Source: a virus
Strand: one strand, 5' to 3'
DNA length: 34,887 nucleotides
IMG/VR virus record: IMGVR_UViG_3300020455_000047
Span: 1 to 34,887 of that record
The translations under genes were made by a program, and so were the position numbers. Position 1 is the stretch's first letter. Each line of letters begins with the position of its first letter. The notes beneath the pieces are model-generated. The model had not been told where the DNA came from. It searched no databases and was given only the letters and a program-made list of their open reading frames with translations. This document shows positions 809 to 33,829 of the stretch, piece by piece.

Positions 809-3800
809 CCTTCACCTTTGTAGTTGTGAACCTACCAGTGAAGTTTGATGATGATGTCGCAGCACTAGATTTTGCTAGTGAGATAGTCACGTTACTACCG
901 ACAACACTAATCGTCGCATCCATCAAATTATTGTCAGAAGTTACTGAGTTAGTGACTGTAGAATGTGCAGTAGTTCCGTTAGATGCACATACAGTTGTAA
1001 CCTCAAGCATGTGAACTTTATTGTCATCACTCTCGATGGTTATGAGTGTCTTTGCTCCTTTATATTCATTTCTATCGAATTGAATAATAGATGAAGTTGA
1101 TGGGAACGATGCTAACTGACCACCTTCTACACGACAGTCATCCAACTCCATGAATGTTGCAGTAGAATCAAATACTGTCAAATAACTTTCTGTATTTGTT
1201 GCCCAACCTCTATTAATCTTCCATGCTGTCTCTGATCCATTAGCATCTATAGCAAGGAATGATTTACCATCTGTTCTAGTTACAAAATCCTGAGCAATAA
1301 TATCCATTCTAGCGAATGGTGCTGATGGACTACTGATAGTTGCAACTGGGAATGATATGTCATCGGTAACTGGAGTTCCACCTATTAAGTTTCCTGCAAT
1401 TGTGATAACCTCACCAACCTCATATCCAGTTCCACCAGATACGATTGTTACAGTTGATATACCACCACTTCCATTAGTAACAACAGTGAATGTTGCTCCT
1501 GTTCCTTCAAAGTTTGATGTGGATGCTACAGCAGTATATGTTGCTGATGTTCCATAATTATTTCCATTAGATGTTACTGATCCTATAGTTGCTACGACAC
1601 CCTGTTGTGGAACTTGTCTAAGTCTTAAACCAGATGTAGCACCATCACATATCTCAAAATCTTTCTTATCTCTAAACTTAGCAATAGATGTTCCACCACG
1701 TTGGATATCTACTGGGTCTTGAGATGATGTAACACCATCAATTCTTAAAGTTCCTTGAACATCAAATGTTTTAGCAGATCTAAGTATAAACTTACTTTGA
1801 GATATACTTAATGAATTAACACCAGTATTGAAGAATTCAAATGTGTCTTCGTCAGCACCAGGCGATGATTCGGTTAATACAAATGTATCTTGGTCAACGT
1901 CACGAACACCACCAAGAGATACAAAGTCATTTCCATTGAAACCTTCAAACTGTAACTGTGTAGTATTAAATCTGATAGCACCTGTAATACGATCTAATGT
2001 ATTAGGACGTTGGTTTGTAGTTCCTGATGGAATTACAAGAGATCCAGTTGAATCACATAATACATCGAATCCTCCGCCTGGTTTCAATACAACACCAGAA
2101 CCATCTATGTCACTAACTGTAACTGATACACCTGTACCACCACCTACTGCAGCGATTGTAATTGTATCTCCAACCTTATAGTTTTGACCCTTATCATATA
2201 CAACAACTGATGAGAATGTTCCAGAGGCGACGGTTACATCAACTGTCAATCCAGTTCCACTTCCACCTGTAGTTGCAGTTTGTGTGTATGCTCCATCTGT
2301 ATATCCAGATCCAGTTCCTGTGACTGACAATGTAAGAACCTGACCAAATGATCTAGTTGATGTTGCACTATTATTGCTTACAACGTTTTGTCTAATACGT
2401 AACTTACCCGCATCTAAGTTTCCTAAGAATGTGGCAGTTCCTGTTCCAGAATCTATTGATACAACATCTGATGTTCCATCTGTAATCTTGAAGTCAACGT
2501 TTGCACCACCTTTAAATGTAAAGTCTCCTTCACCTTTGGTGTCAAAATTAAGTGGTACGTTAATATCTGATCCACCTGTACCAATGGTATTTGTACCATC
2601 AATGAATAGATTAGATGTAGCACTTCCTAATTCTAATTTGCTTGTGGCGGTATCAACTACAAAGAATGGATTTGTTTCAGTTATATCTGAGTCAAGTTTT
2701 AATCCTGTAAAGTATAAACCACTAGAATCTATTTTACCTGTTTGGGTTCCTGCAACACTAACACCAACAATGTCTGCACCTTCTCTGAATAAACCAGTTG
2801 TGGTGGAGTTATCAAATGATATACTAGGTGCTGCAGCAGTTCCATCTGTAACTTTTAGAGATGTTTGTGCTATTGAACTGGTTCCACCAGATATTTGAAC
2901 ACCCGCACTTGCAGTGAATACTCCAGAAACACCAAGAGTATCACCAACTGTAAGTCCTTGAGTTACCGCTACATTACCACTAAATGCTCCAGTTACCGCT
3001 GTAATAACACCAGAAGAACTTACGTTCCAGTTTGGTGTTTGTAACTGTCCATTTTTGTTTATAGTTACTTGTTCAGCAGCAGTTGCACCTAATGTTAATA
3101 GACCTTCTTGACTTAATTCTAATCCTTTCTCGGATGCAATACTTGCAATGCTAAGAGCTAATCCATTTCCTTGAACAGAACCAGGTGATCCAACTTCTCC
3201 TATTATTAATGTATCTGCTAATTCGTAAGCACCACCTGCATCACCAACTGTTACTGCAGTTGCAAAACCAACAGCATTAATTGTAAATTGGAATCCACCT
3301 CCACCTCCACCACCGACTGTGGAGTCATCAACACTCAATACCTCTCCTACAAGGTAACCTTCACCAGTTAACGATATGCCTGTAACAGATGATACACCTG
3401 TATTGTTTGATTGTAAAGTATACTCGAATCCACTACCAGTACCGCCAATATCATCTTGATCTGCTACTAATGTATGTCCTACTGAATAATTACCGCCAGT
3501 TCCCTGTGAAGAAATCTCAACAACAGTTACTAAACCACCCGCAATGGTAATGTTTGCTGACATACCAACACCAGATTGTCCTGCAGCACCTGTAGTGTAT
3601 GTAATTACACCACCTTCACCCATAACAGTTCCATGAACTGTACATTGATATGTGCCTGATGATGTAGTAGAAGATACAGAACCAACAACTACCTCAAAAT
3701 ATGAACCAGCTGTACCTGGCGTTCTATATTGCCTAGTTGTAGTTCCTTGTGCAGCACTGAATGCTAGAGGGTGATTAGTGTTTGAAGCATCAGATGTATC

Positions 3801-6800
3801 AAAACGATATGTATTGTCATCTATAAGTGTAAAACTTCCTGCTTCATTACCATCAATAAAGTATCTGTTAACGACTCCAGTTACTAATTCTAGAGTTCCA
3901 CTTGCTCCTGCACCATTTGAGATAGTATCTGTTTGAGCATCTTGGAATATTCCTGTTACATTGCTAAGATATAAGTAATCAGCACCGACAAATGATACGG
4001 TACCTGTAGCATTTGATACAGAACCTGTAACCGTATTTCCTACTGCAAATGTTCCTGTAATACTTGAGAGTTCTAATCTAGCTCTATCTGCAACTGTAAC
4101 TGTAAATGTTGTGGTTGGAGGGTTTCTAAACTCAATGGATACTGGAGTTTCTCCTGTGTCTGTGTATCCAGTTCCTGCGTTAGTAATTGTTCCAGAAAAA
4201 CCAGGTATGGTAATATTTGCTGTTGCTCCTATTCCATTTCCTGTAGTTGTAAATGCAACGTTATTATAAGTTCCTGCAGTATATCCAGATCCTGATGCAG
4301 TTATTGTTCCAGATAATGATTGTACATCTAACTGTGCAGTTCCACCAGATCCTGCACCTCCTACAAATGTAATTGTAGGTGCTGACTCATATCCACTTCC
4401 TGCAGTGTCAAGAGTAATTGATCCAATTCTACCTGTCTTTTCATCTAGTATAGAACTTATAACAGCTTCAACTAAGTTCTCTCCTGCAACTGGTTCGGGT
4501 GTAAGTTTTATAGTTGGGTTTGATCTATATCCTAAACCTTGTGAATCTAAATTTATAGACGCAATAGCAAATCCTAAAGTCGCAGTTGCAGCTGCACCTG
4601 ATCCTGTGGTATCTCCAGTTCCTGCTGTAATTGTTACTGTTGGAGTAGCAGTGTTAGCATAAGTTCCACCTGTGCCTACGATAATTGCGTCAAGATTTTG
4701 ACCCATTGTAACTGATAAGTTTTCGCCAGATCCAGCTGAGTCGGTAATCGTGATTATTGGTGCACCAGTATATCCTGTTCCAGATTCTGTAATAGTAACA
4801 CCAGTAATTGCTCCTGCAGATATCTGGACAGTTCCTAAAGCAGTAACACCTTGGAAGAACATGTTACCAGAACCAGCTCCAGTTATATTAACAGCAGTTC
4901 CATTGTTAGCGTTTGACGCTGATGATGCAACTTTAAAGTTATTTCCATCTACACGGATAGCATAATAAGTTCCTGCAGCAAGACCTGTGGGTGCTACAGC
5001 GTTTGAGTCTAATGTTGTTGTATCTAAGGATATTTGCTGTCCAGTCTCAAATGGGTGATTATCAATATTGATACTATCGTTTGCTAAGTCAACGGTAGCA
5101 ACTCCACCTACAAATGTTTGTTCTGGAGGAGCAGCAAAAGCAGCAGTTGGTGATACAAAAGCACTACCACCCGCATCTACTGATACAGCAATAACTCTTT
5201 GCCCAGAACTTAATTGAGCAGTTCCTGCACCACTACCTGTACCAGAAAGAGTAACGTCTGGAACTGCAGTGTATGACATGTTACCTCTATTGGTAACTGT
5301 AAATTTCTTAATCTCACCAGTTGTAGCAATTGTTGCTGTTGCTGTTGCAATTGTGTTTGGATTTGATGTAAGTTCAACGGTATGAGATCCACCAACGTAT
5401 CCGTTTCCTGCACTATCAAGATTTAATGTACCTAAACCATTTTTAAATACGATAAATGCTCTGGATGAGAAGTTTGCTGCTTCAGACGAACCAAACAATA
5501 AACTATCAGAAAAACCTCTAACTCTTAGAGCACCTTGAACAGAACTACCAAAAGCAATTGATTTATTAACGTCAAAGAATACTGCCTCTTTTACGATTGT
5601 CTCAGCGTTAACAACAAAGTCTTCTTGACCAGAAGGGTCAACGATAACCTGACCTGTAGTAGATGTAAGACTGTTACCCGCAATTCTTAAATTACCAGTC
5701 TCAATAAACGCAGGGAATATATTAGTTGTTCCAGTTGAGTCACTTAATGTGATGTTTGCAGCAGACTGAGCTGTTGATGTAGCAGCAAATGATACATTAC
5801 CTGTCTCTTGGTCTACAGAAAATGCATCGCCAACACGGAAGTCACCGTCTTGGTCTGTAGATGAAAATAATACTTTACCACTATTAAGTTCTTCTACCTC
5901 ATTATTCTGAACTGCAAGTGATGGGTCATTTGTAAAGTCTGCACCAGAACCAACATAACCAAAGTTATGTGCAGTCAATATAAGTTTTACACCAGAACCA
6001 TCTGCCTGTACACCTTTTTGTCCGTATACACATGCAGATGCAACTGAACGCATTTCTGCACCAAACGCAGAATAGTCAGCAGTGATAACAGATGTAGCAG
6101 TATCACCACCACTAGATCTAATATCAGATGTTCCACCAGAGACGTCTGTAAAGGTCGTAGAGGCGTCTGTACCGTTAGCATGGAGCAATAGTACTGTATT
6201 GATATCTGAACCATACTCATTTGTTGTTGGAGTAAATCCTGCAGTAAAACGAGCAGAACCTTTACTGATTCTTACTTCATCAACATGTCCGTTAAATGCT
6301 TGTGTAGGACTTGCTTGATAATCAGAACCTATGATAACAGGTTTTGTTGATCCGTAATCATTAGAGTCTGTATATGTGCCTAACTCAGTTCCATCTAAGA
6401 ATAATTTTGTTGTACCACCACTTCTTGCTACTGCAACATGATAGAATGTGTTTGTTGCTAATGTACCACCACTAATTTGTGATGTATTTCCTACTGCATA
6501 ATGTAATGTAGTTCCATCAAGATACATTGTAGGTGCTGTATCTGTAGCAGAATTATCTCTAAGATCAAATATTCTTTGTACACCTGATACACTGCCAGGT
6601 CTTATGAATGCTTCTAGACACCAGTTTGCTGTACCAAATCCAAAGTCTTCGTCACTTGGAACTTTTACGTTATCCTCAGTTCCGTCTAATAGTATGGATG
6701 CTGTGCCAAACTTTTTCTGTGCTGTATCTAACTGTGAGTCACCAAATCTACTTAATACCTTAACTGGTTTATTGACAGTTGTAAATTCACCAATTCCTTT

Positions 6801-17345: not shown

Positions 17346-18860
17346 TTAGAATTCAATTACTACTTTTAGCTCTTCGTTTTGGTCTGCCGAACGAGTGATC
17401 GGGATCCTATTATCTAGGTATAATATTTCACCTGAGTTTAGTTCAATTTCTTCGTTGGCATAACCTTGAACAAATGATAAACCTAACTCGTAAACAGATA
17501 CACCAATAGTTATCTGTGTCAACGGAACTGAGGAAGTTCCAAATGTGCTGTCTGGAGTTGCAGTATAAGAGTTTGTAGATCCAGTAATCTGATTAGAACC
17601 AGAAAACGGAATTACATCACCATTGACAGTACCATCAGTCTCATCCTGATAGTATTTTAAGACTTTAGTTATTGTATCATATGATACAACTAATCCTTTT
17701 GCATTAGTTGTTGCTTGAGTGATAGTCTCACCAGCTACAAATGTTCCACTAGGTGTTCCTGCACCTGATTGTGGGAATATCAATGCCTTCACCGCAGATC
17801 TAGTATTCTGACTACAAATAGTTGTTGTGTTATAATCAGTAGGATTTAATACAAGACCAACTCTTCTGTAAGTCAAGTCATTAGGGAAGTCAACAAATGC
17901 ACTAGTAGTTTCTAACTTACTAGCAAACATAAGACGATATGCACCTAATTCTCTTACAGAATCAAAACCATGTCCACCGTTAGGAGGAAGAATAACGTCA
18001 AGATTAGCGTTAGTTCCATTACCAATGTTAGGAATAAGACTTACATCAATAGATGCAAAACTATATCCAGAACCCGCTTGAGTTATTGTGACGGATGATA
18101 CAGAACCAGATACTACAATCACTGTACATAGTGCTTGAGTTCCACCGTTAATATTATAATCACCACGAATAGGAACGTTAGTGAATGTTCCATTGTTATA
18201 ACCAGATCCTGCATTCTCAATAACAACAGTATCAACAGATCCTGAGTTTGCTGCAGATTTTACAAGTGAGTTTGACAATACAGGAATAAATTCTGTAGTA
18301 ACAAACTTTAGAATATTATCAGCATCAATAGTATAAAGATATTTCCAACGATAGGAATATACGCCAGGTGAATCTGATGTCTCAATAATAGTTGTCGATG
18401 TTCCTGTAGGTTCTACCAATGAGGGGCGTCCTCTTGGGAAGTCAGGGTTTTGACCATTGTATAGACACTTGTAGACATTAAAGTCTGAGTTCATAACATA
18501 GAAGTTACTGTCATACAGTCTAGAAGAACCGTTTGCAGTAGTTTTTGTTGGTGCATAATCAGGTTTATACATTGAGTATGTACGTCCTACTCCACCAGTT
18601 GTTTTTGCAGGATCTATCCAGTCAACTCTTGGTATTACCAGAGCAGTATCGGATATGTCAACACGCTTAAATGCAACGGAGTCACCATAAGAAGTTCTCG
18701 CATACTCGAAACTATCAAGAGGTTCTCCTGTAGGTGGTACATCTGTACTACCCCAAGTCTTTGCTCTACCGACAAACATATACACCTTATTGGTGGTCTG
18801 CAAGGTATCTCTAAAGCTTTCAGCAGCGTATATTCTAAAATTGTCTGTAACTAATGCCAT
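17346..18860 (-). CDS. gp8: Baseplate wedge subunit gp8
   Basis: Resembles gp8 of marine T4-like phages: 'MALVTDNFRIYAAESFRD', 'NKVYMFVGRAKTW', 'ALVIPRVDW', 'DSNFYVMNSDFNVYKCLYNG' and 'YRWKYLYTIDADNILKFVTTEF' in that order over residues 1-195. In T4, gp8 joins gp10, gp7, gp53, gp6 and gp25 in the wedge. At 504 aa it is longer than T4 gp8 (334 aa); the extra length includes GSGY beta repeats around residues 210-290 ('ENAGSGYNNGTF', 'TQAGSGYSFASID'). Position after the gp7-type gene fits T4 order. A TATAAATA octamer lies just upstream. No strong ribosome binding site is visible. Confidence 0.88.
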   Translation of the reverse strand: MALVTDNFRIYAAESFRDTLQTTNKVYMFVGRAKTWGSTDVPPTGEPLDSFEYARTSYGDSVAFKRVDISDTALVIPRVDWIDPAKTTGGVGRTYSMYKPDYAPTKTTANGSSRLYDSNFYVMNSDFNVYKCLYNGQNPDFPRGRPSLVEPTGTSTTIIETSDSPGVYSYRWKYLYTIDADNILKFVTTEFIPVLSNSLVKSAANSGSVDTVVIENAGSGYNNGTFTNVPIRGDYNINGGTQALCTVIVVSGSVSSVTITQAGSGYSFASIDVSLIPNIGNGTNANLDVILPPNGGHGFDSVRELGAYRLMFASKLETTSAFVDFPNDLTYRRVGLVLNPTDYNTTTICSQNTRSAVKALIFPQSGAGTPSGTFVAGETITQATTNAKGLVVSYDTITKVLKYYQDETDGTVNGDVIPFSGSNQITGSTNSYTATPDSTFGTSSVPLTQITIGVSVYELGLSFVQGYANEEIELNSGEILYLDNRIPITRSADQNEELKVVIEF

Positions 18861-18889: not shown

Positions 18890-21800
18890 ATGATCTCAGA
18901 CGAACTTCTGGGCAAACACTGGTGTTTCCGCTTGTTGTCCGCGAGAATGGAAACTCTACAGTAAATGTATTGCTTCCAGTAACGGTAACTGTGTAAGTTC
19001 CGTTGATTCCATCACCACTACCAGATCCAATATCAAAGTCTAAGACTATTCTCTGACCTGTAGTGAAATTGTGGTTAGATGATGTAGAAACTGTACATGT
19101 GGTTCCTGACGAATTATATGTACCAGTCAATACTGTGTGAATTGATGCTGTAGTTCCTTCATGTCCTCTACCATTTGTAGCGACTGTCAATGTATTTGAT
19201 GAAGTATTTTTAGATGCATACAATATTCTTTCACATGACCAAACTTGTTCAACAGTATTGTAGAATGGAACTAATACCTCACCTTCGTCAGGGAATCCAT
19301 TTTTTTGTGTAGAATTAAAGTATACATTTTTTAGATTTAATGTAGTTCCACTAGATGATAATGTGGATGTCAAATATGTTATACCAAGTGACAGTGAGTT
19401 GGATAAAATTCTATCTCTTTGTCTTCTTTCTAGTGCTAGAGGATGCACAGCAATAACAGTCGGTGCACTGGTATATCCAGCTCCACCCTTTAGATTTATA
19501 ACTGATAAAACCTTACCACTTCCAGTCTCAATAGTAGTCTCAGCAGACGCACCATCTCCACCTCCACCTTGGAATAATAGGATAGGTGGAACCTCATAGT
19601 TAGATCCTACATTTGTTATATTGACCTGTGTTACTTGTCCGCCAGTAACGACTGCTGTAAATTCTGCAGTGCTTGGTTTTAGACCTGTATACTCGTAACT
19701 GTCAATAGTGGTAGAACTTGATACAGTAGCAACTAAACGATCTGAACCCTCACTAGAGATCTTAACTCTGTCGCCAGGATCTATAGAGTTGAATGTATTG
19801 CTTATCAATATATCGTTTGGACTACCTGTGTAGATGAATAGAATACAATCAGATCCTGCTCTAGGTGCTTCGCTAAACTCAATGATAGATCCTGTCAATG
19901 TATATGCAACGCCAGGTTCTTGATATACACCATTTAAGAATATGAGTAAGTTGTTTTGTGCTTGTACAGCAGCGTTATCACTTTCTAATGAGAATGGTTC
20001 AGTATTCTCTTTCATGGTAAATGTCTTTTTCTTATTATCAAAGAATGGTTCAATAGCATCTAACTGTGTCAATTTACCAAAGTAGAATCCATAGAAGTCC
20101 ATACCCGCTAGAGGTGCCTCAGTAAATGTAATTGTGCTACCTGTGTAGTTGTATGCCTTAGAACTACCCTTAATCTGTAAGGTGCTGTTCAAGAAAATTA
20201 AGAAGTTGTCATTTGCGGGCAATACTTGTGTTGATCCACCAGACAGTGTAGTAAATGTAGTATCACTACCATCAAATGTTACATCACCAACGTTTATCTG
20301 GAAGAATGGTTGTACTGAATTTGTTCTGGTAATACCATTTAAGTTACCACTATTAGTTCCAACATTTACTGTGATTGTTGTCGCTGTAACCGCAGTAATA
20401 GCAACTGCTGTATTATATGCAGGATCGCTTGTTCGTGGGTAAGTATGGTTCGTTGCATTGTTATCATTGGCACATGTGAATGTCATTGAGTTGGCGGAGA
20501 TTGTCACTGTATCACTTGTTGTGAGTGAGTGAGATCCAATCGTCATCTCCATAAGACCTGTAGTATTGTCGTATGTTGTTGGAGCAACAGCAGTGAAAGG
20601 TCCGCTACCACCACCAGTAACTGTGATGTTATTAGATGTGGAACTTACGAATGTGTGAGCACCAGTTCCTACTGCCTGAGTTACAATCGCCCATAATGTA
20701 GATATTGTTGATGCAGTATCGACACAGCATGCCTCGGAGTATGTTGTGCTACCAGAGTCATTACTAATTGTATTGTCTTTGATTTGTGCACCAACAGTGT
20801 CACCATTCGTAGTAACTGTAAGGTTACGCATTACCTGACGACAAATATCTCTAGCATGATTGAATACCTGTACAGACTCACCTTCTTCACCATTTAGATG
20901 AACAGTTCCAACATAGAAATTAGCAGCATCATATGTTGCATCGTTTCCACCAAATTCTACGTTATCTGCAACTGCATCTATTAGTAACTTTGTATCACGA
21001 ATACACTTGGTCTTGTAGATGCCAGAGAATGATGGGTTGTCTGCTTGCATTCTACCATATGCAGTTGTAGCAATAAATTCTTGATTGAGTCTAAGTAGAT
21101 TTCCTGCATCTGCAACTTTGCTATACTTATATACACCATAACTGACAACTGCTCGTGTGACAGCTGTAGAAGTGGCACTCACAAATGTATGTGTTGATGT
21201 ATCAGATGATACACCTACGTTGACTGTAAATGTATCTGCAGTTACAGCGTCAATAGTATGCCATGCACCTTCTGATGGATCTCCAACTCTAGGATATGTG
21301 TGCTGTGTAGCATTGTTGTCTAGACCACATGTAAATGTTAATGAGTTATTAGCAAAGAATATTCTGTCACCTTTGATTAATGGATGACCAGTTACTGTCA
21401 AGACCATTTCACCTGTGCTAGGTGTGTAAGTAATATCTGATGGTTGGAATTGGTATGTTGACAATCCTTGCCATGCGTGTGTGTCAGTGTTTGTAGGTGA
21501 TGTTCCGTTTAATGCATTGACTGTAATCGTAGTGCTTGTTACCGCCTCAACTGGTACATCTTTCATCTTACCTTGTGTACCGATTGGGTCAGTAGCACGT
21601 GGATATGCTGCTGTACCACCACTACCATAGTTGCAACTAAATCTCAATGACTCATTAGCAATCCTTACTGTAGATATTGCAAACTTAACGCTATTTGATG
21701 CTGCTGATATGAATACATGTGGACTTAGATCAGTAGAAGGAATACTATCAAGAACTTGTACTGTAAATGTATTGGTAGTGCAATCAAATGCTTCTAACCA

Positions 21801-24800
21801 TCTATCTGATGCATAGTCTGTAGAACGAGGATATGATTCATTACCTCCACCACCGTAAGTACAACTAAATGTCAATGAACCATCTGCAAACTTAACAAAA
21901 TCACCATTGACACGTCCGTGGTTGTTAATAGTTACCACCATCAAACCAGTATTAGGATCGTATGTTGCATCTGAAGGTGTATGTGTTGTAGGTGCAGATA
22001 AACCATGACCAGATCCTATGGTCAATACCATCTCACCAGATGTAGGAGCATATGTTCCATTTGTAGGAAGAAAATGCTTGACTAGTTGCTCTCCAACACG
22101 AGGATCAGATATACCTAGTACATCTGTATCAGTGTATCCATTACCCGCAGACACTAATGTAACATTTGATACTGCACCATTTGTAACTGTGATGTCAGCA
22201 GTTGCACCGATACCAGAACCTAATCTATTCTTAAGTGGTACTGCAGTATATGTGCCATCACTATATCCTGAGCCAGGTGTAAGACCATTTGCAACATCAA
22301 AGGATTTTATCTCATCACCAATCTGATCTAGTATAAACGAAGTAGTATAATCTGCACGATCAAAATACATTGCAATAATTCTAGTCTCTGCTAATGGAGG
22401 TGTGATAAATGTTACAATGTTATTTGACAGTGTATATGTTGCAGGGTTTGCAATCAATCCATTTACAGATAATAATAGTTGTGTGTTAGATGCAGTCTTA
22501 CCAATTTGAGTATTAAGATCAACACCATTGACTCTTAACTTAAATGAGTCATTGATACCATCTATGAAACATCTCAATGAGTGTCCTACACCTGATCCTT
22601 GAGATGTAAGGTTGATGTCAGCACCACCCTCTGTCAATGATAGTCTTATTGTATTAGCATCTACAATCTTAACGTAATATTTTGCAGCGTTTGTAAGTCC
22701 ACCAATAGGAGTTCCAGATCTATTGTTAGGATAGTTACCAATATCTAATGATGGTAACGCAGCAGTTGGATCTGATATAGCACCTGTAACTATTCCTGCA
22801 AATACAGTAATTGCACTCTTGACATCTGCACAACCGCCAGAATCGTTTGTAATACTTAAGTCTGTCTGTGGCACTATGTTTGTATATGTGCCTACTGGAA
22901 GATCATTTGTAACTGCTAGTAGACATAAATCTCTTGCCTTGTTAAATGCATATATTGTCTCTGTTTCTTCACCAGCTACGTGTTGTACACCAGTTCCATC
23001 TGTGTATGACTGTGCAGCATCTATACTAAAGTAATTACCACCATACTTAAGATCATTAGTCCATGCAGCAACTACAAGTCTAGTATCTCTAGCACATTTT
23101 GCCTGACCATACTGTAATGTTGGATATTGTGCATTTAGGAATCCAATAGTCTCTTCTACAATATAATCAATATTGTTTACAATTAGATCTCTAGCATCTA
23201 AGAATCTATCTCCACCAGAGAAATAAGTTACCTGTTGTCCTTCTACAAGTCCATGATTAGTGATTGTGATTTTGTCATCTACACCATCTACAACAGCAGT
23301 GCTAGATCCATCAAATGTTAAAGTTCTATCACTAATATCATCAATCTTATATGAGATACAAGATAAGATCTTCTGAACGTCTAATAACTGTTTTCCGTAG
23401 ATAGAAACCTCTGTAGGAACCAATGCACTATAATCTGGTTTTGATAAAGCAAAGTTATTAATCTGTGATAACTTACCAGTTGCTTTAGCAGATGGTTTTG
23501 GTGTTATAAATGTCGTGCCATTAAAAGTAGTTCCAATACTGTTTGTATTTGGCACCCACCAGTCAAATGTGTTACTTGGGTTTAAGTTAAGTGTAGATCT
23601 AGGTCTAAAGTCTTTCTTGACTGATTGTGTCAATACTTGTGTACCAACAACCTTAAATCCTGCAGGGTGTGCTGCAAACTTGAGTGGATTCTTCCAATCT
23701 GTGATGTTTATAGGTGATGATATATCATAAGAGAATTCTTGGAACCTATTACTGTCATATACACGTTGTTCGTTAAGATCTAGGAATCCAGTGGTCTTCT
23801 CCCAGTTTGCTGCAGATGTGCTAATAGGTGAAACTACAAATTCGGCATCTGCTCTATCGAACGCATGTATTTGACCAAACGCTGCTGATTCTTCACCAAA
23901 TACAGGTTGACCTACTACAAAGTCACCTTCTACAAGTTCTACACTAACAACACGACCAGATGCGTCCCAATCCTTGATAAATCCAAATGCAGTAAAGGAT
24001 GTAGTAGATGCACCTTGATATATCCTTTCTCCGATAGCAAAAGTGGCGGGTTTGGTATATGCAACAATATTGTCACCTAAGTCTGTTGTCTCAACTGTAA
24101 AGTATGTTTGACCAGTTACAGGATCGCCTATAGGAGCACTTGTAAATGTTATTGTAGTCTCAGTGTTAGCATTGGCAAGACTAGTTGCTAGTTTTATCTG
24201 ACTATCTGCCAAACCATTAGCAGTTGTTGCTGCAACAGCAAAGTAAGTTGTTTCTGTCTGTAATGGTGAAGGAAGTAATCCCGATGTCTCTACAAGTGTT
24301 ACTTTTGTTCCTGTTGGTATTTTTGCATTATATGGGAAGTTTATTGTACTGCTTGACTGTAATGCTACAAATGTGTGACTGACCTTTGCTCTTACCGTTG
24401 GTGATGACGTAAATCCTCTACCCGCATTTTCTACATTGACTGCCTGTATAATTTCGTTTTGGACTATTGGTTTTAAGTCAAATAATGAACCTTGACCACC
24501 CTCTAGTATAATCTCAGGTGTAGATACAAAGTTTGCACCACCATTTACTACATCAAGGTAATCAATGATCTGAGTTCTGATTAATTGTAAATTATAAGTT
24601 GTATTTAACTTAGGTTTAAGTGTTCTATCGTGACTATAGTTAAATGTAATGTTCTCACCACCAATCTTAAGTATCTCTCCCATATTTGATGATTTAAGAA
24701 GTATAGATGCACCAGTTCCAAGTCTTTGTTCAACATTAATAATTGGAGGACTTTGATATTGTTGTCCTGCTGCCAATATGTTGATTGATACTACACCTTC

Positions 24801-27800
24801 ATTCAATATTAGTGCATTCAATGATGCATTGATACCATTACCACCTTGTGCTGTAATATTAGGTGCAGAGAGATAACCAGATCCTTGGTTAGTAACAGTA
24901 ACAGAGTCTATTGATGCATCTAACAATGTTTCTGTTGTTGCTACATCTGTAAATGTCATTGTCGCAGGTTTTAGAACTGCGTCGTCTGCTCCATCGGATC
25001 CACCTAGGTCAGCACCAGAGATTGTAATTTCGTCAGCGATATTATATGATGTGCCACCATCTGTTACTGTTACAGACTCAATAGTTCCGTTACCATCAGT
25101 TACCACAGTGAATACTGCACCAGTAGCACTAGTTCCTGCTATTGATTTTTGTTGGACACCTGTGTATGTCTGAGATGATCCGTAGTTTGTTGAAGATTGA
25201 GTCTTAACTGAGACAGTTGAGATTATACCGTAGTATGGGTCATCAAACAATATTTGAGGAGCAGCTCTATAGTTTGTTCCTGCACCTGTAACATTAACCT
25301 CTGATACTTTACCCGCACCAGATACTGCTGCAGCGACTGTTGCCTGTGATCCACTTATATTCTCAATAGTTGCTACAGAGTTTCCACCTGTGTAAACTAA
25401 AGAACGAATATTAAATGACTGTGTGCCAGTTCCAGAATTGGTTATGGTGATTGCCGTACCCACCTCTGCTAACTGTGGTGTAAGTGCTAACTTCACACGT
25501 CCTGCATCACCTATGTTGATTACATAGTAAGTTTCTCCAACAACCATATTACTGATTGGGTTAGTCTCAGCTGAGACATATTTGACTGGATCTCCTGTTT
25601 TTGCATCATGGACTGCAAACTCAAACTGATCATCGTATCCTACTGCGTCAATTTGTGATGGGTTTATATTGTATGTCTTACCCGCATTAAACATGATATA
25701 TCCTTTCTGACCCGCACCTGTTCTAGTGTTCTGTAATGGTTGTAATCTTAATATTGATGTAATTGGGTTCCAGTTAATAACTTTACCTCTAGCAGTGTTA
25801 TTATCTTGGATTGCCTTACCAATGATGATTTCGTCTGGTAAGAAGTTACCTAATACGTTTCCTAGAGTCAAATCTACAAAATCAGGCATTGTAACAACAC
25901 AAGTGGGCAATGCTGCAGGATTATATCCAGATCCATTGTTTGTTATTGATACATTAGATAATCCACCAGAAATAGTCGCTATGGCAGTAGCACCTGATCC
26001 AGATCTAGTAGAACCGCTTAATTTAGGTAATGATTGGTAGTTTCTTCCACTATCACCAATTGTTATGGTTGCAATACCTCCAGTTGGGTATACTGAGTTT
26101 GTAGAGTAAGTTAATCCGACACTATAACCAGTTTCGGGTGCTGCAGCAAGTTTATAGGTAAATGAAGTGTCAGTTTTCGATATAACTGTATGTGTCCCTA
26201 ATATTGGGTCATTAATGATTGTAAAATACCTACTATTGGTTACATCACTCTTAATTGTGATTGCGTTGCCCATATAAGCGTGGTTTTGACAAACATAGTG
26301 TAATGTGTCAGGAGAAGTGACTGAAGGTGTAATAGAAACGCTTCTAGTAGTCGCACTTGCAAAATTAGAATTATAATCATCCCAAGAAACCACATCTCCG
26401 TTAATTCTGTAAACAACTCCTACCTCATACCTAAGAACACCACCATATGCGTCCTCACTCTCAGAGAAGTAGATAGCATGTGTAACATTTGATACATCAC
26501 TTTGATCAAATGTATAAGTCAATCCACGAGACATTGTGATTGATGGAGATTGCTCAAGAGAACCATACTTATCACCTGTCATCCAATATCCTTTACCAGA
26601 TCCTTGACCGAATAGAGGATGATCTGTTGTTTTAAGTTGAACTGAAACTGTAAATGTGTTTGGTGCAGTAATTTGATGTTTTACATCGTGATAGTAGAAA
26701 ATGCCAGGTAATTCTGTTATTTTTGTTGTAATTGAATTTTGTTCGTTAGTTATAGGGTCTCTAGACTCTTCAATAATGTTTTTGTAAGTAAAGATGTCTG
26801 TATTTGCAGGATCAAGTGTAAATGACAATACTTTACCACTATTACTTGCATCAGATGTGTCAAACACATATGAGTGACCATCTATTACTGATAGATTTGG
26901 TTCTTTGACGAAAACGTCTGCAGGATTGCCACCATTACCTGTTGTAACATTTGCTGAAGTGGTAGAAGCAAAGTTTCTCTTGACAATAAACCTATTGAGT
27001 GAGTCTATCCTATCTACGATGTAATTTGCCTTATTATAAGACACAGGTGAGACACCTGAGATATTGACTAGAGATCCTACACCTAGTTGATGAGCATTAT
27101 TTGTCTTACACTCTACCTCTCTTACAACTTGTGTCAATGTGATGAGGAATCCTGCACCACTTGGGTTGTTTCCTACGTTAAGATTGTCAACACTAATCTG
27201 ATCTCCAACATCATACCCATATCCAAAGTCTGTAATTGTAATTGCTTGAACAGCACCACTACCAATAACTATGGTTGCTTTAGCATCCTTACCATCTCCT
27301 GTTGATGATACTAATGGAACGTTTGAGTAAGTTCCGTCTAGGTAATTAGATCCTCCTGAGTTTGTAGTCCACCCATTTTGATATAAGTTACCATCTGTAC
27401 GTATTCTTATAAACTCCCATTGCATTGCTCCGTCAGATGCTACTCCTGATGTATGTGTAGGTGCATTCGTTCCAGATGTTCCTGCAGGATGCACTGCTCT
27501 ATACACTCTATTTGCAACATGTACTAGATCTCCAGTAGTATATGAAGAAGTGGTTGCGTATGGGTCTAACAACTTCATACTTACTAGATTAAAGTATTTG
27601 AAGTGATAGTTACCATTGATAACTTTACTTGTTAAAGATCTAGTATTGGCATTATCAGTTGCGGATATATTAATAATATCTCCCGCTTGTAGTAAATGTG
27701 CCTCAGCAGTAGTGACAGCTCCGTAGTATAAGTCTAAACCTTCCACAGATACTGAAGCGTACACACTAGCAAGACTACTTACAGTTGTTCCTTCTACTTG

Positions 27801-30800
27801 TGCTACGACAGCACTAACACCTTCTCCGCCAGTTCCTGTATTGTCAAACTGCAATCGGTCATTTACCTTATATCCTTTACCGCCACCCTCTACAAGATAC
27901 TGGTCAATGTTTGCGGAAGAAAACTTATTTGTAGATGATACAACTAGAGAATCCGCTTGACCTCCTCTAATAAACGGATAGTAACTGAAGTATCCAATAC
28001 CATCCTCAATATATGTCAACGTCTCACCAGTCTCCATGACGATAAGAGTTGTACTATCTTCTAATGCAAGGAAGAAGTCAATCTTGTTGTCTAATACTTT
28101 TCTTCTTGCAACAATATTGTCCACACCGATAAATGGTGCTCTGTAACGTATTGCATCTTCTGTAAAGTTTTTCTGCAATCCATTACCATCCCAGTTTACT
28201 TGATCCGCTTCACCATAAAACTCTGATCCAATAAAGTATGGGAATGCGGGATTACCAGTTGTACCTGTAATAGTTGTAAAATACGCATAGACTCCATTTG
28301 GATATTCTGGAGTAACGCAGAATCTACCATTATAACGGTCTAAGTCGCCTAGACCTTCCACATATTCATAATCCTCAAGATAAGTGCCTAGAGGGTCACT
28401 GAGACCGCTTAGAAGAGCATCTCTGGTAGTCTTTACTCTGTAACTACTTCTAATACGTTTGTAAGCATTAAATGGTGCACTATTCTCAGGATCTACAAAT
28501 CCGTAAGGTCCGTATATTGGATGTCCGTCATATGCCCAACCAATAATAGGTGAGTGCACTGTAGGAGGTAATTCCTGTAAGTTTCCGTTATTATCTAAAC
28601 CAATACTATCTTTAAGTAAGAATCTTAGTTGCTTGGGATTATATAAGTATCCATACTCTCCTCCGTAGATCAAGAAGTTTTCTCCTTGGAAACACCCACC
28701 ACCAAAAACGTCTGTAGTCTTAGGTGATACAAATGTACTACTACCTAGTTCTAATCCTGTTGCTGCTTCGTTTACGGATAGTTCCGTCAATCTAGTTTGG
28801 AATCGTGCACCTGAGCCAGGATATACGATGTCAACTCTTGTAGCACCCGCAGTATACCCAATACCTTTACTTGATACAGTAATACCTGTAACGATGTTTG
28901 TGGTTAGGTCAACAGTAGCAAACGCAGTTGCACCTACACCGTCACCAGTAATGATAACGTCTGGAGGACCGAAGTATGCACTACCACCGAATGTTACGAT
29001 TATACTCTCTATCTTTCCATTCAGTATTGATGGATACGCAACAGCTCCGCTTCCACTTATTAAATTGATGGTTGGTTCGTATGTATACTGCGATCCTGCG
29101 TTTGTTATGTTAATAGTTTCTACAGGACCTCGACAAACTGCTACTGCAGTAGCACCAACTCCGCCTCCTCCTGATATTGTTATGGTAGGAATACTTGTAT
29201 ATCCCGCACCACCGTTTACAATAGTAATACCTGTTACGGTACCATCCGTAATTTGTGCGGTAGCATACGCCTGATTTCCGCTTATCGCTCCTCCACCTAC
29301 AATAGAAACGATTGGTTGCGTCTTATATCCCGCACCTCCACTCGTAACGTTGATTGCAGTTACGGAACCTGTAATGACAACCGCAGCTTCTGCACTCTGT
29401 CCTTCATACTCCCAATCAATCAATCCTACAGTTTGTATTCCTGCAGTGTGTAATGGATACAGTGTTGCGGAAGATTTAGCAGGATTAAGTGCTTTATACC
29501 TTCTTCCCTGATATGTTACTCTAATTCCAGACGCATATGTTGTGCTAAGTTTATATTCTGCCTCAAACTCTACAGTAGGAGGGTTTGTAATATCATATCC
29601 GCTTCCACCGTCAATTCTTTCAATATTCTTCAATCCGCCATACTTTGTCTTAGTTTCAGACTTAAATGAGAATAATGGGACACCATTAGTACCAATACCG
29701 ACTTGACCAACAGGAGTTGGTGTTTTTGATGATTTAATACTTGGTTTTAGAGGAATACGTTTTAAATACCTCTGATTGCCAGGATCTAGGTCTGTAGGAG
29801 CAAAAGGTCCTACTTTATGTGTTGGTACACCTGTACTAGCGACTATTGCATGAGTATCAGACTGATATGTGTTCTGTACATCACCAGTAGTGTCTTTTAT
29901 AGCAATATTGATAGAATTGTCGTCACTAGCACCAAATGCAAATTCTCTGGCAATAAAGAACTCAAATCCACTAATACCTTGTGCAGGAGATGATGAGAAG
30001 ACAAACTCAAACGTAAACTCATCAACAACACCTACAACAGTGTGATTATTGTTGTAAATGTCTTCTGGAGCATTTAATATTCTAACAGTGTCATTTCTGA
30101 CCAATCTATGCTTCTCTTTAGTGATTACGGTACATCTAACTGATCCATCGCTTGCGGGTGCTTCTAGCGTCGCTGAGACGCCTCTGAGAGCACGTCGTAC
30201 GTTGTATATAAAACTATCCCATATAGGATCTATGCTATCAAAACCTGGTGCAGCGGGAGTAGTAACTTTTGAGTCTGGTAAGTAGTATCTTCCACCATTA
30301 TTGAGTATTACACCTCTAGTACCACCAAATATCTTTAATTGTATCTCAGAACCGTCTACATTGGAATTACCGTAGATTCTAAACGCAGCAATGACGTCTT
30401 GACCCGCATCATGTGCTACATTGCTTGAATTCTCTCTTGCACGGTTGCAACCAAGGAATTGTGTAACTGTTTTATCGGTATAACTGATTATTTCGTCTTC
30501 TATCCTAAATTTACCGTTTGTTTCAGGCCATCCTAGTGTAGAGTCAACTGTAACAACAGTATCGGTCAAATTAGCACCTAAATCTTGTGCTAGAGTTGTT
30601 TTATACGGAGTTGCAAAGGTTCCGAGTGAATTATTGGTGTCTACGTCAATTTCGTAGATTGTTCCGTTCTCTGTAAAGACTTCTACGACTCCTTTGACGT
30701 AAATTCTCGCAGATCCGATATTTGAGTCGTTTGGATCCGCATCTTGGTACAATACTTCGCCTACAAGTTCTATTGGGTTGCCTTTTATAGGAACTGCACG

Positions 30801-31589: not shown

Positions 31590-33440
31590 TTAATAGCTAG
31601 ATTCTGGAATCACTCCTGTTCCAGAAAGATTTGAACCACTACTGATAGTATCTTCTATTACAGTAATTACTGAGTTATCTATACCCATAGTAATATAAGT
31701 TTCTCGGAGAGAAACCAAGTCATTTGACTTAGGTGTAGCTTTTATCTGCAATGTATTATTTGCTACACTAGTAGATTGTATTATCAAGTCATTAATTACA
31801 ATCTCTCCCATATCATAATCCACAGATCCCCATAATCCATCAATATACTCAAACTCACCAGTTCCTTTGACGTAGTATAGTCTTAATGTGCCTGTACCAT
31901 CGTCATTTAAGAAGTAAGTATTAACATCATCACCTACAATCTTAAATCCGCTTGATAATACAGCGGGATCTGTAGATGTTTGCTTGTTAATTCTGTTACC
32001 ATAGCAAATTTTGTAGTTAACACGAGTGTTTAGATCAACTGTAACGTTCTTTCTCATTGTTACACGAGTAATATTAGACGTAATTGATCTTTCTGCAGCG
32101 TCAATGATGTTTTGAACCTTAGAATATTTGAATTTACCACCAAACTTGTTAAATTCACCACTTGCATTAAGTGCAGTTAGGGTAGTAATCACTAAATTCT
32201 TAATTTCAGCGGGTTCTCTACGTGTATTATTGGGGTTATAGTACACAAAACTCACTAAATCTATGAAAAGAATGGACGGATCAATGATTGTTGGTTGAAT
32301 TGCAGCAACAGAAAACTCTCTGAGTTTCTTTAGAACAGAATTTTTCTCAGAAAGTGATAATTTATCTGCATTTTTAGGTTTGATTGCTAAAAATACCTTA
32401 CCAAATTCGGGAGGTTCCGCTTCTTCTCCACCATAACATGCAATAGATGCGACGTTTGGATAGATTTGTGGTATGATTGCCTCGTAATCCCGCGTAGAAA
32501 CTGCTCTACCAAACGCAGAATAGAATTTTGGTGCACTAAATTTGATAGATTCCGTAGATTCTGGTTCTGCACCTCCGTCTGGGAACTGAACTGCAGAGAT
32601 AGAAATGCCAGAAGTTATCGCATTGTTCAAATTATCACGATAAGTTCCGATATTTTCAAAAACTTTTAGACCATTTGCTCCTCTTCCTGCAGAAGTTGTA
32701 TATTTTACAGTTACAACATCTCCATTTTCTAGAGATTTACCTATCACACCGTCTCCAAATAGGATTTCTGGTATCTGATACTCACTCTCTTCTAAGAAAA
32801 ATACCTTAGATGTAGAATCTATCTTAGTAATATCGGTTGCTTGTAGATATTTTTCTGTAATTGTACCAGAAGTTACCTCTACAATCATGCTTGTAGTGTC
32901 AACTCTCTCGTTAGTAAGTATAAATCTCTGTCTTTGTGTAGTATCTTTTACAAAAGTATCGGTTAAGAACAATCCCTCAAACAAAACTGTATTGTTAAAT
33001 GACGCAATACCTGTCAAACTATCTACAGATTGCGAAATATCAGTCGGAACTGAGAATACAAAGTTATTATTATCTAATCCTGTAAAGTTTAGAACCAGTC
33101 CTGCAGCGATTGTAACTGATTTAGGGTAAGGAAATGCTGTTTGTACAGCAATGTCAACTATGGTACGTGCTGATTTTGCAGAACTAGGTGTGTAACCAAT
33201 CATTCTTGCAAGTTTTACAACGTTTTCTCTTAAAACTGCTGTTTCTAGGAACCCCTCATTGACTGCAAGGTTAGCATTTACACTTGTGTAATATGTGTTG
33301 TATGCTAATGTATCAATTAATACAGTAAGAGACGATCCCTCGAAGTCATAATCACTAAATTGCGACTGTGCCTTCAAATATTCTTTTATTTGTGCCTTGA
33401 TCTGGTTGAACTCAAGGGCATTGACTTGATTAAATGCCAT
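31590..33440 (-). CDS. gp6: Baseplate wedge subunit gp6
   Basis: Matches gp6 of T4-like phages (baseplate J-like superfamily) in sequence character and length (616 aa against 660 in T4). Visible landmarks are 'FEGSSLTVLIDTLAYNTYYT' near residue 39, 'NEGFLETAVLRENVVKLARM' near 62, 'MIGYTPSSAKSARTIVDIAV', the middle 'FGDGVIGKSLENGDVVTVKY', and 'RAVSTRDYEAIIPQIYPNVA' near 310. gp6 forms the inner ring of the baseplate and connects wedges. Its ATG overlaps the gp25 stop as TAATG, and the gp7-type gene follows after six bases, so gp25, gp6 and gp7 probably share one transcript. Confidence 0.92.
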   Translation of the reverse strand: MAFNQVNALEFNQIKAQIKEYLKAQSQFSDYDFEGSSLTVLIDTLAYNTYYTSVNANLAVNEGFLETAVLRENVVKLARMIGYTPSSAKSARTIVDIAVQTAFPYPKSVTIAAGLVLNFTGLDNNNFVFSVPTDISQSVDSLTGIASFNNTVLFEGLFLTDTFVKDTTQRQRFILTNERVDTTSMIVEVTSGTITEKYLQATDITKIDSTSKVFFLEESEYQIPEILFGDGVIGKSLENGDVVTVKYTTSAGRGANGLKVFENIGTYRDNLNNAITSGISISAVQFPDGGAEPESTESIKFSAPKFYSAFGRAVSTRDYEAIIPQIYPNVASIACYGGEEAEPPEFGKVFLAIKPKNADKLSLSEKNSVLKKLREFSVAAIQPTIIDPSILFIDLVSFVYYNPNNTRREPAEIKNLVITTLTALNASGEFNKFGGKFKYSKVQNIIDAAERSITSNITRVTMRKNVTVDLNTRVNYKICYGNRINKQTSTDPAVLSSGFKIVGDDVNTYFLNDDGTGTLRLYYVKGTGEFEYIDGLWGSVDYDMGEIVINDLIIQSTSVANNTLQIKATPKSNDLVSLRETYITMGIDNSVITVIEDTISSGSNLSGTGVIPESSY

Positions 33441-33829
33441 TATGGTTTAAATACTACACTAACATCATCAAATTTCGGTTTTAGACCAATTATCAGATAA
33501 TTAATAGAACAATTTAATGCATTTCGATCTTCTTCAAAGTCTACAGAGACAGTAACACCTGTTACTCTTGGTTCATGTATCTCTATTGCCTCTTCAATCC
33601 TATTTTTGACCTCTAATTCTAATCCAGAAGTAGAATTCTCAAATAATAGACCAATGATATTGCCACCGAAGAACGGATCAAAAGGTTTTTCGTAAAAATT
33701 ATATAAAACTATATTTTTTACTGATTCTTTGATAGCAGCTTCGTTTTTTAGAGACAAGATATCATTAGTCACTGCATTCTTCTCGAACGTTAGTGAAAAA
33801 TCTCTAAAAGATTTTGATATCAAGGACAT
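33440..33829 (-). CDS. gp25: Baseplate wedge subunit gp25 (GPW/gp25 family)
   Basis: 129 aa, nearly the length of T4 gp25 (132). Family features are the N-terminal 'DFSLTFEKNAVTNDILSLKN' and the middle 'IKESVKNIVLYNFYEKPFDP' followed by 'GNIIGLLFEN', then 'RIEEAIEIHEPRV' and a beta end 'LNCSINYLIIG'. gp25 is the conserved wedge subunit that contacts the sheath base and, with gp6 and gp7, forms the core bundle. It opens the wedge operon here. A TATAAATA octamer lies 27 bases upstream; AAGG about 15 bases from the ATG is a rather distant ribosome binding site. Confidence 0.92.
   Translation of the reverse strand: MSLISKSFRDFSLTFEKNAVTNDILSLKNEAAIKESVKNIVLYNFYEKPFDPFFGGNIIGLLFENSTSGLELEVKNRIEEAIEIHEPRVTGVTVSVDFEEDRNALNCSINYLIIGLKPKFDDVSVVFKP

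Follow-up and report, generated by a model that had tools for sequence, protein, structure and literature searches.

The question raised by this locus is whether the baseplate of a marine phage contains a cupredoxin with a type 1 copper site, and what such a site might do there. The window, by which we mean the whole stretch of DNA analyzed, comprises one entire IMG/VR record of 34,887 bases. It carries a T4-like tail cluster on its minus strand (Table 1), in which the gp8-like gene is followed by genes for large fibre-type proteins. The carrier of the domain, P0001, had been labeled a gp7-type baseplate wedge protein in a first-pass annotation, and this label is borne out. The protein matches PHROG 2885 (“baseplate wedge subunit”), the gene order gp25-gp6-gp7 is common to the window and Prochlorococcus phage P-HM1, and the cupredoxin domain is 70-71% identical to the corresponding domain in gp7 of P-HM1 and P-HM2. 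Assignment to the gp7-type wedge proteins is based on the family match together with the gene order. The virus is a T4-like marine cyanophage close to P-HM1 and P-HM2.

Table 1. Features of the window, with residue numbers of the encoding protein and positions in the window.
Feature	Residues	Positions	Strand	Evidence or remarks
gp25-like gene		33440-33829	minus	
gp6-like gene		31590-33440	minus	
P0001, gp7-type baseplate wedge protein, domain carrier	4232 aa	18885..31583	minus	ORF, PHROG 2885, gene order
gp8-like gene		17346-18860	minus	
YHYH domain (PF14240), P0001	975-1106	28266..28661	minus	Pfam 1.1e-27
Degenerate sister cupredoxin copy, P0001	1561-1637	26673..26903	minus	HMM 67.8 bits
Complete cupredoxin domain, P0001	~1643-1781	about 26241..26657	minus	HMM 123 bits
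Predicted copper ligand	H1702	26478..26480	minus	H in 32/32 gp7 orthologues; aligned to plastocyanin’s His
Predicted copper ligand	C1765	26289..26291	minus	C in 32/32; codons TGT 23, TGC 9
Predicted copper ligand	H1768	26280..26282	minus	H in 32/32; codons CAT 23, CAC 9
Predicted axial ligand	M1771	26271..26273	minus	M 30, L 2 of 32; M, Q or L in wider family
Second complete set, fibre-type protein P0003	H1421, C1464, H1467, M1471	3597..3869	minus	HMM 52.7 bits

Other parts of P0001 also contain recognizable segments. Two short stretches, residues 680-728 (positions 29400-29546) and 1343-1392 (27408-27557), look alike by eye, and the former resembles the carbohydrate-binding module CBM_5_12 (E 0.0017, below the Pfam cut-off). 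Four or more copies of a repeat unit, in which L/M-x-F-[ST]-C precedes Y-P-R, occupy residues ~3200-3760 (about 20300-21990), and every copy has a Cys.

The four residues first proposed as ligands, H1702, C1765, H1768 and M1771, all occur at the claimed positions of the P0001 reading frame. Among the nine proteins of the window, C-x2-H-x2-M is found once. Chance was rejected as its source, as the expectation in P0001 from composition is 0.002 and the motif appeared in 39 of 20,000 shuffles. The span originally assigned to the domain (26245-26530) was correct for the ligands and too short in extent: the shared N-terminal strand, K-T-x2-H-P, starts near residue 1643, so that the domain covers the longer interval given in Table 1.

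An AlphaFold2 model was built from 31 aligned copies and covers residues 1663-1781 (119 residues). It is a beta-sandwich with its strands in order (pLDDT 92.5, pTM 0.85) and with a longer middle stretch that includes a short helix. H40 (H1702) lies directly ahead of strand 42-45, C103 (C1765) is the end of strand 98-103, and H106 and M109 (H1768 and M1771) are in the loop ahead of the last strand, 110-116; as modeled, this ligand layout is the cupredoxin arrangement. With VIA-align, the top solved structure was rusticyanin (Z 6.3, rmsd 2.6, 91 residues), with CueO (Z 5.6), plastocyanin (5.3) and AcoP (4.7) in lower rows. Ranks 1-8 are all cupredoxins, and several more are present at Z 5-6.3. 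Note that these Z values are modest, that dystroglycan and Ig-type rows score close to the cupredoxins, and that Foldseek gave E-values >0.001 with Ig domains ranking high; due to these limitations, structure alone is insufficient to decide. The proposed cupredoxin fold nevertheless stands, as a confident beta-sandwich for which cupredoxins lead the VIA comparison and sequence profiles supply the firmness, and the domain almost certainly has this fold. Matches in BFVD are mostly cyanophage tail proteins and should be taken to indicate spread, not function. Three others (A0A481Z7Q7, A0A481Z6J5 and A0A481YWX9) are “beta-sandwich proteins” of Pithovirus- and Marseillevirus-like giant viruses.

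For the profile comparisons, a broad profile of 31 copies was searched against the PDB and returned plastocyanin 1b3i (1.7e-4), whose own ligands coincide with the His, Cys and His of the family. It also returned antibody chains, which look like chance matches to a Y-x-C strand. Two further profiles had no sequence in common: A4, made from gp7-type copies only, and A5, made from ligand-complete copies of other phages and of cells. Compared with each other, they matched at 99% and E 6e-18, with Cys, His and Met in register. Against the PDB, A5 returned plastocyanin first (3.1e-6), then nitrite reductase, amicyanin (6.7e-4) and others, and copper proteins make up nearly all of the 60 matches listed. 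Homology to the blue copper proteins is given by these two steps, from A4 to A5 and from A5 to plastocyanin. A4 itself reached no PDB cupredoxin significantly, and the link therefore runs via intermediates. An Ig-like domain lacking a metal site was rejected because A5 returns almost only blue copper proteins, and a CuA site was rejected because it requires two loop Cys, which the domain does not have.

Curated models give a corresponding picture for the family. Five relatives match Pfam Copper-bind (PF00127; best 4.4e-7), family members match the plastocyanin model TIGR02656 at up to 1.2e-7, and matches to the plastocyanin/amicyanin-type models (PF00127, TIGR02656, TIGR02657) range from 1e-7 to 1e-4, those of related members to TIGR02656 and TIGR02657 staying below cut-off. 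The window domain matches nothing in Pfam, PF00127 included, and nothing in NCBIfam, including amicyanin TIGR02657 and plastocyanin TIGR02656. Because it has no direct model match and the gp7-only profile found no significant cupredoxin in the PDB, it should be considered a diverged cupredoxin that is neither an amicyanin nor a plastocyanin. Judged from its sequence, the window domain belongs among the true cupredoxins and retains an intact type 1 copper-like site at which metal binding is predicted; its capacity to bind copper is highly probable.

Conservation of the ligands was assessed at two depths. No exception to His, Cys and His is seen across 32 gp7 orthologues, of which 26 are distinct; at the axial position Met is the rule and Leu occasional, and the ligand codons vary silently (Table 1). 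As many as 53 of the 117 columns show no variation in these orthologues, so this result taken alone is weak evidence. The wider family comprises 387 copies in 253 ORFs, reduced to 93 non-redundant copies by clustering at 80% identity. These include 50 with H-C-H-Met, 20 with H-C-H-Gln and 3 with H-C-H-Leu, so that most copies have Met, Gln or Leu at the axial position. Of 86 scorable non-redundant copies, 73 have the full His, Cys and His; the remaining 13 are without Cys and each also misses at least one His, and the combination of Cys without both His was not seen (0/86). All 13 Cys-less copies keep core residues G1687 and F1692, from which it follows that the ligands are dispensable for folding. 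Eight of the 13 belong to one orthologous group, that of the degenerate copy adjoining the window’s complete copy, and a tree built without the ligand columns places about five Cys losses. The all-or-none rule is strong, not absolute, as one IMG/VR copy hidden by clustering reads D-C-H-L.

Using a query of 49 residues with no ligand residue inside, H-C-H-M was recovered at 78 of 79 readable loci, and the result is therefore not an artefact of motif-bearing queries. At least one complete H/C/H set is kept in all multi-copy ORFs (84/84), a count that should be considered biased because most queries contained the ligand motif. A type 1 site is thus found with His, Cys, His and an axial residue at canonical positions and conserved. 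The first-pass annotation had expected the ligands to be kept among homologues and had argued that the site is no mere relic. The former is what we find, and the latter is favored by the near all-or-none retention, the silent codon changes and the restriction of the axial residue mostly to Met, Gln or Leu. In the Gln-axial phage subgroup (L048, L056, L059 and many other loci), the loop reads Y-W-C-H-x-H-T-G-Q-G, as in stellacyanin.

The complete copy in P0001 directly follows the degenerate one and lies about 540 residues past the YHYH domain. In the degenerate copy, the first His is replaced by Lys and the Cys by Asp (ligand state KDH). In a tandem model of both copies it reaches pLDDT <50, too low for the structure to establish its fold. 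P0003 carries the window’s second complete ligand set, with the spacing C-x2-H-x3-M; at residues 450-591 (6261-6686) the same protein has a Concanavalin A-like lectin domain (Laminin_G_3, E 1.6e-18). In related phages, a cupredoxin inside or flanking the YHYH domain recurs. S-ShM2 and S-SSM4 have a complete cupredoxin nested within the YHYH domain of a baseplate wedge protein. Syn19-like phages have a YHYH-nested copy without ligands, an upstream copy that keeps them, and a further kept copy at the end of the neighboring tail-fibre connector; these kept copies are complete in nearly all such phages, the upstream copy of the S-RIM4 type being without Met. Another protein type has the order cupredoxin(Gln)-YHYH-cupredoxin(Met).

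One query found relatives in 203 phage records, another in 72. The carriers are Synechococcus and Prochlorococcus phages, pelagiphages, Methylophilales phages and cyanophage PSS2, in which PSS2_gp080 is a stand-alone copy of 112 residues without the Cys/His ligands. Of the other genome contigs with relatives, many probably represent phage DNA within marine assemblies. Overall, marine phages have hundreds of these domains, distributed over proteins of the baseplate, the fibre connector and the fibres. Stand-alone cellular relatives are short lipoproteins with the full ligand set, including those of Marinifilum and SAR86.

What the site does can be approached from the two classes of copies. Ligand-free copies persist, so the fold must be of use as a module by itself; where ligands are present they are kept as a unit, which argues for a metal-binding use of the site. 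In type 1 sites, copper is bound tightly and rigidly, and it raises cupredoxin stability. Because little copper is available in the cytoplasm in which phage proteins fold, the site is likely loaded after lysis. Taken together, these points lead us to favor a copper lock in an exposed module. While the particle is assembled in the host cytoplasm, the beta-sandwich would form with its His-Cys-His-Met site already shaped and probably empty, and after lysis the site would take up one copper ion. The copper would lock and stabilize the module, which belongs to a set of beta modules that may occupy the rim facing the host, and would protect the Cys against oxidation. Copies needing shape only would have lost the ligand set, and copies at other positions would retain it. 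We give this reading as a whole, a copper-lock cupredoxin module in a gp7-type baseplate protein, an even chance of being correct; its separate elements of rim position, post-lysis loading and stabilizing role are tentative, each at or slightly under evens. The sequences suggest that phage particles with these domains may carry copper.

Three other readings were weighed, and no result here tells the stabilizing, redox and docking roles apart. The module might be a beta-sandwich spacer with ligands kept by descent and no metal in the virion, as the ligand-free copies (e.g., PSS2_gp080 and the YHYH-nested copy of Syn19-like phages) and the window’s degenerate sister copy would allow. Drift is, however, an unlikely source of near all-or-none retention, silent codons at invariant ligands and an axial position held mostly by Met, Gln or Leu, and we consider the spacer unlikely. 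In a redox role at the host surface, electrons would pass between the site and a partner in the envelope or periplasm while the phage adsorbs or injects, and this would help to trigger the baseplate. Electron transfer is the role of type 1 sites in cells, variation among Met, Gln and Leu is a natural potential-tuning set, and copies are located in baseplate and fibre-connector proteins. Each module, however, has one isolated site, for which neither a redox partner nor a second center was identified, and comparable places in other baseplates are occupied by ligand-free copies, making this role quite unlikely.

Copper-dependent docking, in which bound copper is recognized by a metal-uptake or surface structure of the host, would be the copper counterpart of the iron “Ferrojan/Trojan horse”. 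Tail-fibre iron sites and the Trojan-horse idea have been described for marine phages (PMC11705849), and the module does occur in tail fibres and fibre connectors of cyanophages, pelagiphages and Methylophilales phages. Type 1 copper is, however, largely buried and ill-suited to receptor recognition, there is no known host receptor, and the module is common to phages of unrelated hosts; we regard docking as very unlikely. The broader proposal is doubtful. It holds that true blue-copper centers in the baseplate and fibre-connector proteins of marine tailed phages are working virion parts, which take up copper after release and serve redox triggering or copper-dependent attachment. If this were true, ocean phages would amount to a reservoir of copper bound in protein.

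The known cupredoxins are electron carriers, either soluble or bound to membranes, or form domains of oxidases. In the openly accessible literature, we found no description of a cupredoxin in a phage virion (searching phage, baseplate and cyanophage) and no relevant paper linking YHYH with copper, in agreement with the initial remark that a phage-baseplate cupredoxin was not known to be described. The fold is known; what appears to be new is its repeated use, with all ligands in place and in association with YHYH, as a module of baseplates and fibres in marine phages. Should copper be bound as predicted, it would join the metals known in virions, and the phage-iron hypothesis would extend to a second scarce metal. 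The authors of work on pelagimyophages noted YHYH domains in structural proteins and the replacement of T4 gp7 by VrlC, and these remarks on YHYH and VrlC contain no mention of cupredoxins (PMC7029224).

Among known systems, plastocyanin and amicyanin (PF00127, TIGR02656, TIGR02657) share with the window domain the beta-sandwich, the upstream His and, in the last loop, C-x2-H-x2-M, which is the ligand spacing of amicyanin. It differs from them in matching neither model, in its longer middle stretch with the short helix, and in being a module inside a 4232-residue virion protein where they are soluble carriers. Rusticyanin and AcoP, periplasmic proteins of an acidophile, resemble it in structure (VIA Z 6.3 and 4.7) and in having Cys, His and Met within the last loop; identity is, however, 15-18% over aligned residues, and the ligand loop of rusticyanin is longer. 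For the At5g54830-like family (PF25489), a Marinifilum lipoprotein homologue exceeds the cut-off (30.5 versus 27 bits), whereas the window domain has no match, and the name of that family carries no copper role. Axial Met, Gln and Leu are those of common type 1 sites, stellacyanin and some laccases, respectively. The stellacyanin type is approached by the 20 of 93 non-redundant copies with H-C-H-Gln (e.g., L048); unlike these, gp7 copies carry Met or Leu, and umecyanin and mavicyanin were matched weakly. The nearest published idea is that of iron in phage tail fibres, where iron-binding HxH sites are found in T4 gp37 and Alteromonas phage R22Y and are proposed for marine phages too (PMC11705849). 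Both cases would place a metal site within a tail protein, but the tail-fibre sites are short His-x-His motifs with octahedral iron, whereas the window has a predicted single-chain His-Cys-His-Met cupredoxin site.
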